A program made the position numbers and the translations under genes. The notes below the pieces were generated by a model. That model made no database searches and was not told where the DNA came from. It saw only the letters and a list, made by a program, of their open reading frames with translations. Positions 34,367 through 40,441 of a DNA stretch of 64,000 nucleotides are shown piece after piece; position 1 is the first letter of the stretch; every line of letters starts with the position of its first letter. Source of the stretch: Hyphomicrobiales bacterium (GTDB taxonomy: Bacteria > Pseudomonadota > Alphaproteobacteria > Rhizobiales > Xanthobacteraceae); contig JAFKKH010000020.1 of assembly GCA_017305665.1 (NCBI GenBank), positions 1 to 64,000 of the forward strand, given 5' to 3'.

Positions 34367-34747
34367 CTAAAGCGCCCGGACGATCTGCATGGCCGCGATC
34401 AGCGCGGCGACCGATAGCACGACCGAAGCAAGCATGTAAGCACCAGCGGCAACCGCCTCACCGCGCTCGATCAGATAGAATGCATCCAGCGAGAACGTGG
34501 AAAACGTGGTGTAGCCGCCGCAAACGCCAACGGTAAGGAATATCCGGACGGCTTGCGGCAAATCCCAACGGATGGCGAACAGGCCGGCAAACAACCCCAT
34601 CAGTAACGATCCGCTGATATTGATGAACAGCGTGCCCCACGGAAACTTCGGACCCAGCAACCGGCCGAAGCCGATGCCGACGAGATAGCGAGCTACCGAC
34701 CCCAACGACCCGCCCGCGGCGACAGCCAGAATGAACGTCCACTTCAA
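34367..34747 (-). CDS. crcB: Fluoride exporter CrcB/Fluc
   Basis: 126 residues with four membrane helices. Family motifs are GGSLGSVARY, GTLFINISGS and GVCGGYTTFSTFS (the pore-lining Phe box). CrcB forms dual-topology dimers exporting F-. I place the start at TTG 34747, which has AAGGAGG eight bases upstream and overlaps the stop of the small gene before it; the GTG at 34771 would put the coding start upstream of the ribosome-binding site. It is downstream of a fluoride riboswitch. Confidence 0.93.
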   Translation of the reverse strand: MKWTFILAVAAGGSLGSVARYLVGIGFGRLLGPKFPWGTLFINISGSLLMGLFAGLFAIRWDLPQAVRIFLTVGVCGGYTTFSTFSLDAFYLIERGEAVAAGAYMLASVVLSVAALIAAMQIVRAL

Positions 34748-34917
34748 TGTTTTTGCCTCCTTAGCAGCCACTCGGCCATGCCTGTGATCGCGCCGACGGC
34801 CACCAGAGGAACCACCGAAGCCATTTCAGAATCCGTCAGATAAGCGATCGCAACCACGGCCCAGCAGGCACCGACGATCCACAACGAGATCGACAGCGAA
34901 TCCGGAAGCCTGGTCAT
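34744..34917 (-). CDS. 57-residue two-helix membrane protein coupled to crcB
   Basis: A short gene from ATG 34917, with AAGGG before it. The protein is 57 residues: MTRLPDSLSI, then two hydrophobic helices at about residues 11-27 and 34-50, then an Arg/Lys-rich tail (LLRRQKH). Its TGA stop overlaps the crcB TTG start (TTGA), and the SD of crcB lies inside its last codons, so translation of the two is linked. It sits directly behind the fluoride riboswitch. It is not a CrcB fragment by motif; a fluoride-export accessory protein is the obvious guess. Confidence 0.75.
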   Translation of the reverse strand: MTRLPDSLSISLWIVGACWAVVAIAYLTDSEMASVVPLVAVGAITGMAEWLLRRQKH

Positions 34918-34943
34918 GCGCGCCCTTTCTCGGGCGCTACGGA

Positions 34944-34986
34944 GGGAGGAACGAGCTCCTACCGACGCGAAAGCGCCCGGTAGGAG
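34944..34986 (-). promoter_or_regulatory. Putative fluoride-riboswitch expression platform hairpin
   Basis: On the minus strand CTCCTACC (the last bases of the aptamer) and GGTAGGAG form an 8-bp stem around a GGCGC..CG-containing loop. The left arm overlaps the aptamer pseudoknot strand ACTCC, so ligand-bound aptamer and this hairpin exclude each other. No T-run follows. A further stem, GCGCCC-GAGAAA-GGGCGC, covers the start region of the small gene at 34919-34936, so translational control is likely. Confidence 0.55.
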
Positions 34987-35029
34987 TCATCAGCCTTGCG
35001 GCGGGTATCGGGGGACTCCATCCCCATCG
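34979..35029 (-). ncRNA. Fluoride riboswitch (crcB motif RNA)
   Basis: Minus-strand reading gives GGGGATGGAGTCCCCC, then CCGCCGCAAGGCTGATGACT and CTCCTAC. The features of the crcB motif are present: stem P1 GGGGA...TCCCC with the loop TGGAGT, stem P2 GCC-GCAA-GGC, the conserved CTGATGACTCC, and a pseudoknot between GGAGT in the loop and ACTCC in the 3' strand. The ligand is fluoride. It precedes the 57-residue membrane gene and crcB. A downstream hairpin (34944-34986) is a likely expression platform. Confidence 0.92.
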
Positions 35030-35038
35030 ATTTCGATC

Positions 35039-35066
35039 ATGCTAGCTGGATCGGTGAACCGGTCAA
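35039..35066 (-). promoter_or_regulatory. Likely promoter of the fluoride-riboswitch operon
   Basis: Minus-strand TTGACC (35061-35066) and TAGCAT (35039-35044) are 16 bases apart. Transcription would start near 35031, just before the first aptamer stem. Confidence 0.5.
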
Positions 35067-40358: not shown

Positions 40359-40367
40359 ATGACTTAT

Positions 40368-40428
40368 CCCGTGGTGATTTGAGCCGGCCGGCTTGCAGCC
40401 ACGTAAAATAAGTCGCTAAACAGGCCGG
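40368..40428 (+). ncRNA. SAM-II riboswitch (metA element)
   Basis: The segment CGTGGTGATTTG...TTGCAGCCACG...AAGTCGCTAAA carries the SAM-II hallmarks: stem P1 CGTGG (40371-40375) with CCACG (40399-40403), the GTGATTTG loop, and the 3' AAGTCGCTAAA that forms the pseudoknot. The ligand is S-adenosylmethionine, repressing methionine synthesis genes. A 12-base palindrome AGCCGGCCGGCT lies in the loop. Translational or transcriptional control of metZ follows. Confidence 0.93.
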
Positions 40429-40441
40429 GGACAATGTGATC

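Follow-up and report, generated by a model that had tools for sequence, protein, structure and literature searches.

A predicted two-helix small membrane protein encoded behind fluoride riboswitches and overlapping crcB in Nitrobacter and a second genus

The fluoride channel Fluc/CrcB (PF02537), encoded behind fluoride riboswitches, is a small membrane protein of four helices. The riboswitch itself (crcB motif, RF01734) is described in the accessible part of one source as exerting either transcriptional or translational control (PMC13273304), and terminators overlapping the crcB motif, a layout shared by the locus reported here, figure in the available text of Weinberg et al. (PMC2864571). Such riboswitches may also govern larger gene sets, as in the genomic island of Enterobacter cloacae FRM, where a riboswitch-controlled multi-gene fluoride response includes the resistance operon ppaC, uspA, eno, gpmA, crcB and orf5249; the portion of that report at hand names no two-helix small membrane protein, and the present system is set apart from it on this naming, orf5249 being left out of the comparison (PMC5533749). 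Reviews count exporters, Na+/H+ antiporters, pyrophosphatase, enolase and others among the fluoride-response genes, and their accessible sections name no small protein like the one considered below (PMC11139923, PMC7266159). Similarly, the titles and abstract openings of the literature matches listed report no small membrane protein behind fluoride riboswitches, a previous mention as an unnamed hypothetical gene, e.g. in the 2012 primary list of genes behind fluoride riboswitches, being possible.

The window (the whole stretch of 64,000 nucleotides that was analysed) carries on its minus strand what is expected of a fluoride riboswitch-crcB locus, i.e. the same aptamer, the same pseudoknot strands and a competing hairpin upstream of crcB. 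It departs from the known arrangement in that an extra small membrane gene, hereafter the type I smORF, is inserted between riboswitch and crcB and overlaps the latter, and in that no U tract follows hairpin 1 at this locus.

34974-35034, minus strand: fluoride riboswitch aptamer (crcB motif, RF01734); cmscan score 52.8 bits (gathering score 34), model positions 1-64 of 64
34956-34986, minus strand: hairpin 1, a predicted fold with arms nearly invariant across 14 sequences
34920-34937, minus strand: hairpin 2 (GCGCCC-GAGAAA-GGGCGC), a predicted fold immediately 5' of the smORF start
34744-34917, minus strand: type I smORF, 57 aa, ATG start; two predicted membrane helices and a short basic C-terminus
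34756-34762, minus strand: Shine-Dalgarno sequence AAGGAGG for crcB, inside the smORF and 8 nt before the TTG
34367-34747, minus strand: crcB (fluoride channel Fluc/CrcB, PF02537), TTG start, 126 aa

The initial annotation had read here a complete crcB-motif aptamer with its pseudoknot, followed by a 57-codon gene with two membrane helices whose stop overlaps the TTG start of crcB and whose last codons hold the crcB Shine-Dalgarno sequence, and this description is borne out throughout. Besides the match to the full model, both pseudoknot strands, GGAGU (35015-35019) and ACUCC (34983-34987), are present in the sequence. The protein, conserved in relatives, shows two hydrophobic stretches on the Kyte-Doolittle scale (17-residue windows from about residues 6-14 and 30-36), the smORF TGA (34744-34746) and the crcB TTG (34745-34747) overlap with 4 nt in common (TTGA), and the CrcB frame matches PF02537 with E=1.2e-28 as computed on a stretch one codon longer. 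Since hairpin 1 draws on the aptamer's 3' pseudoknot strand for its 5' arm, this strong predicted hairpin and the fluoride-bound aptamer are mutually exclusive. The gap between aptamer and smORF measures 56 nt in the window, and hairpin 2 within it likely contains the ribosome binding site of the smORF; such a hairpin is predicted ahead of the ATG in most of the type I relatives folded, G010 and G232 being the exceptions. As to the crcB start, the mean unpaired probability of the Shine-Dalgarno stretch varies from 0.14 to 0.55 across 12 loci, values that favour neither a hidden nor an open start. Elsewhere in the window, a SAM-alpha riboswitch (RF00521, 87.7 bits) was noticed on the plus strand at 40361-40440.

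When the 230-nt gap was put through 5,000 dinucleotide shuffles, 13.7% of them contained an open reading frame at least as long (P=0.14); the length of the smORF therefore says little and was rejected as evidence for a gene. The distribution of homologues is more telling. Eight matches with E<1e-7 were found in 101 genomes, the window included and the best other at 6e-22, each of them with RF01734 directly upstream. A profile of seven sequences matched in 25 of 296 family genomes; the 13 matches with E<=1e-9 all stand directly behind a fluoride riboswitch, whereas the remaining 12 comprise four behind a riboswitch (G181, G321, G282, G288) and eight that are not, among them a low-scoring one within a long frame of G016, a genome with no riboswitch among the whole-genome matches listed; it should be borne in mind in reading these figures that the smORF profiles were built from riboswitch-linked sequences. 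Counted from the riboswitch side, in a census of 150 loci among those listed from 111 family genomes, 17 are followed by a type I smORF (one broken, in G003; one truncated, in G006) and seven by a weak or type II match, this census leaving out one G055 locus as well as five G028 loci, the latter five being taken in by the type II profile scan instead. The smORF thus has the position of a fluoride riboswitch regulon gene, directly behind RF01734 and on the same strand. The order riboswitch-smORF-crcB recurs in Nitrobacter and in a second main genus, presumably Afipia, so that the frame which the initial annotation had proposed to look for in related genomes is indeed conserved there.

A spread beyond the family was rejected over the genomes and loci covered. 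The A2 profile retrieved from 397 order genomes, besides the window, only a weak match (E=3e-4) in G226, of the same family, and none of the 55 loci over the cut-off that were read, 54 of them outside the family and one (G569) with a smORF match at E=0.049, was counted as a smORF carrier, nine matches below the cut-off being left out. None of the 14 A2 members matched a named family over the cut-off (best E 0.023 in Pfam and 0.0056 in NCBIfam, none in more than five members), PDB held no solved relative of the protein (best E=0.27), and neither the window protein nor the 14 members gave a PF02537 match. An origin as a fragment or duplication of CrcB was rejected at an hhalign probability of 0.9%; although both are small membrane proteins behind fluoride riboswitches, the smORF product has two helices and lacks profile similarity to CrcB. 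Relative to the literature and to the Pfam, NCBIfam and PDB matches, the best reading is that of an undescribed small membrane protein family.

A divergent two-helix protein, type II, is encoded in the second genus as well as in further genera, and two conjugative Bradyrhizobium plasmids also carry it; its profile aligns to that of type I with an hhalign probability of 92% (E=5e-7). On both plasmids the type II gene, annotated as 'hypothetical protein', lies in a cassette behind a riboswitch and ahead of crcB and phosphoglycerate mutase, a pairing that resembles the E. cloacae FRM operon as given in the available text (PMC5533749); the plasmid search found no type I protein. Four of seven type II loci stand directly before crcB (G268, G329, G237, G282), in G254 crcB lies about 700 nt from the riboswitch, and in G028 and G297 there was no crcB in the stretch read. 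A stretch of 1,500 bases at this locus is identical between G329 and G237, two genomes listed in different genera, an identity suggestive of a recent transfer or of contamination common to both. Weak type II-profile matches at loci L145, L138, L152 and L224/L252 (E 2e-4 to 0.01) were left uncounted; that of L152 (G152) does lie behind a riboswitch, its frame being judged unconvincing.

Nine homologues of the second genus are placed away from a riboswitch: seven of them, of type I (L074, L075, L076, L079, L080, L081 and L083), lie in scanned loci from which it is absent, and the other two are second copies in G282 and G288, on different contigs from the riboswitches of these genomes. The G226 frame, a match to the profile of type II at E=8e-15, is likewise on a different contig from the listed riboswitch of its genome. 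Fluoride is therefore not the sole association of the smORF family, and the unlinked homologues suggest that the fluoride version was recruited out of a wider family. Two of them, L079 and L081, adjoin a frame that reads by eye as ferredoxin-like. In loci L221, L223 and L225 (family f50; G413, G487 and G441) the fluoride riboswitch and crcB are separated by a 50-codon frame that has one or two hydrophobic stretches but gave no smORF profile match; in this lineage the position may have come to be occupied by another kind of small membrane protein.

Selection on the smORF is modest and weaker than on crcB. Among 14 smORF pairs, dN/dS could be computed for 13 (G010/G232 being the exception) and ranged from 0.22 to 0.61, with nine at 0.38-0.61 and one of the low values (G181/G282, 0.23) accompanied by saturated dS; for crcB, ten of the 12 pairs lay at 0.10-0.26 and the remaining two (0.57 and 0.61) involved the decayed copy of G001. 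In G000/G008, G004/G006 and G282/G288 the smORF ratio was 0.22-0.23, and as few amino-acid changes were obtained by random placement in 0 of 2,000, 0.45% and 0 of 2,000 trials, respectively. This simple test, applied to nine of the 14 pairs, takes no account of relatedness and preserves nothing but the composition of the changes; on its terms these three pairs and G004/G001 were clearly below neutral and G000/G004 more weakly so (P=0.02), G001/G007 and three pairs among G298, G294 and G195 not differing significantly (P 0.06-0.12). The dN/dS check suggested in the initial annotation shows purifying selection in several pairs, of modest strength, with four of the nine tested pairs not significant.

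Taking these data together, we lean towards the view that the smORF encodes a real small two-helix inner-membrane protein of the fluoride regulon with a membrane role of its own, coupled to crcB where both occur. It is rather unlikely that the protein serves CrcB as a subunit or as an assembly or stability factor, made in coupled amounts. KdpF and AcrZ are small membrane proteins that modulate a transporter, and the smORF protein is like them in being short, hydrophobic and in the company of a transporter; unlike them it has two helices and also occurs without the transporter. The coupled gene order in two genera argues for such a partnership, as does the sister type preceding crcB on plasmids. 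In addition, five type I loci lack a nearby crcB, and three of these belong to genomes with CrcB elsewhere: no crcB was found in the 1.5-1.7 kb read downstream of the smORF copies of G010, G232, G297 and G007, and CrcB genes are present elsewhere in G001, G003, G007 and G297 (in the latter, one on the same contig), so that with G007, G001 and G297 accounted for the protein stands without CrcB only in G010 and G232. These two genomes of a third genus carry riboswitch and smORF with no PF02537 match in assemblies 99% and 90% complete, G010 being a metagenome-assembled genome and the G232 assembly consisting of about 310 contigs. The smORF is thus not confined to genomes with CrcB, which tells against, as the main function, the accessory or assembly role that the initial annotation had put forward as one possibility, and because of these two genomes we favour an own membrane role over that of a CrcB subunit. 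Conversely, of the 60 family loci where crcB lies within 400 nt of the riboswitch, 44 are without a smORF match, and the smORF has been lost where crcB was kept; this and the lack of profile similarity to CrcB speak further against a partner. The smORF protein is probably not a dedicated exporter subunit, and its occurrence suggests a fluoride-response gene found also without the exporter.

The losses are best followed in the nine Nitrobacter genomes, all of which have the riboswitch. Five of them (G000, G008, G004, G001 and G007) have an open smORF; a frameshift truncates it in G006, that of G003 is frameshifted and broken, and in G005 and G002 a 32-codon remnant without helices is left. As to crcB at the same locus, five genomes (G000, G004, G006, G005 and G002) have an intact copy, the contig ends within the gene in G008, the G001 copy has decayed, and G007 and G003 have none. 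The smORF of G001 is therefore open although the adjacent crcB has decayed, and G005, G002 and G260 retain riboswitch and crcB with smORF remnants only. It follows from the latter that CrcB can do without the smORF, in keeping with the initial statement that CrcB normally needs no partner. A broken frame beside intact crcB and riboswitch had also been named there as a sign that the gene is not real; these three genomes show that very state, but the gene is conserved in others, and the condition was thus too strict. At L321, L322 and L323 (G007:C141, G001:C154 and G003:C1), extra fluoride riboswitches were seen in genomes where the old crcB is decayed or gone, those of G007 and G001 with another crcB within about 1.2 kb, and in these three Nitrobacter the old locus may have given way to islands acquired more recently.

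The same remnants bear on a further explanation, which we hold to be rather unlikely, namely that the smORF is mainly a translated leader opening the crcB start, its peptide being of little weight. Wherever a type I smORF and crcB both have their frames in place, in ten pairs out of ten, stop and start overlap by 4 nt. The 32-codon frame of G005 and G002 still ends on the crcB TTG although the helices are gone, as does, read by eye, another short frame after the frameshift of G006, and selection on the peptide is modest; it is because the overlap outlasts the helices in G005 and G002 that the leader is kept under consideration. However, a frame of 32 codons may remain open by chance, the amino-acid sequence is conserved across genera even where no crcB follows, and only one of the four type II-crcB junctions overlaps, the other three having a 4-nt gap.

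We regard as quite improbable that the two-helix protein is a minimal fluoride-handling membrane protein replacing CrcB, e.g. an oligomer through which fluoride leaves the cell or a protein that curbs an HF/proton leak. The motifs GNNLI and GREGT are the mark of fluoride CLCs, and the CLC proteins of the two genomes without a CrcB match (one in G010, two in G232) lack these motifs of the riboswitch-linked G297 CLC, one of the G232 proteins having GREGP. That the smORF is a spurious frame or a pseudogene, to which its insignificant length and the several broken copies could point, is very hard to reconcile with homology and riboswitch linkage across several genera, purifying selection in several pairs and a sister gene annotated on plasmids.

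The contig G297:C49 (73 kb, L137-L140) holds 21 fluoride riboswitches over about 55 kb, together with a smORF copy without crcB in 1.7 kb, and its riboswitch-led frames read by eye as NUDIX hydrolase, CLC (GNNLI/GREGT), inorganic pyrophosphatase, enolase and phosphoglycerate mutase, a content that marks it as a putative dense fluoride-resistance island. Genome-wide, 20 fluoride riboswitches were counted in G028, 13 in G272 and nine in G265.

Returning to the favoured reading of a membrane protein with its own role, the layout and the known behaviour of the riboswitch suggest that the fluoride-bound aptamer would prevent hairpin 1 and thereby switch on a single transcript. Ribosomes would read the smORF and then initiate crcB at the 4-nt overlap, this layout being present in the sequence and the coupling being what we infer from it. 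The protein would reside in the inner membrane and could aid fluoride resistance through the membrane or a membrane target other than CrcB alone; smORF and CrcB would form a coupled pair where both are present, and elsewhere the smORF would be expressed alone from its own riboswitch.

Genes behind fluoride riboswitches reveal how fluoride affects the cell and by which routes cells cope with it. A conserved family for which no named relative was found, with a sister type on plasmids, would point to a component of fluoride tolerance outside export and the replacement of enzymes. Related strains offer a direct test of the question, since the smORF occurs naturally without crcB and crcB without the smORF.
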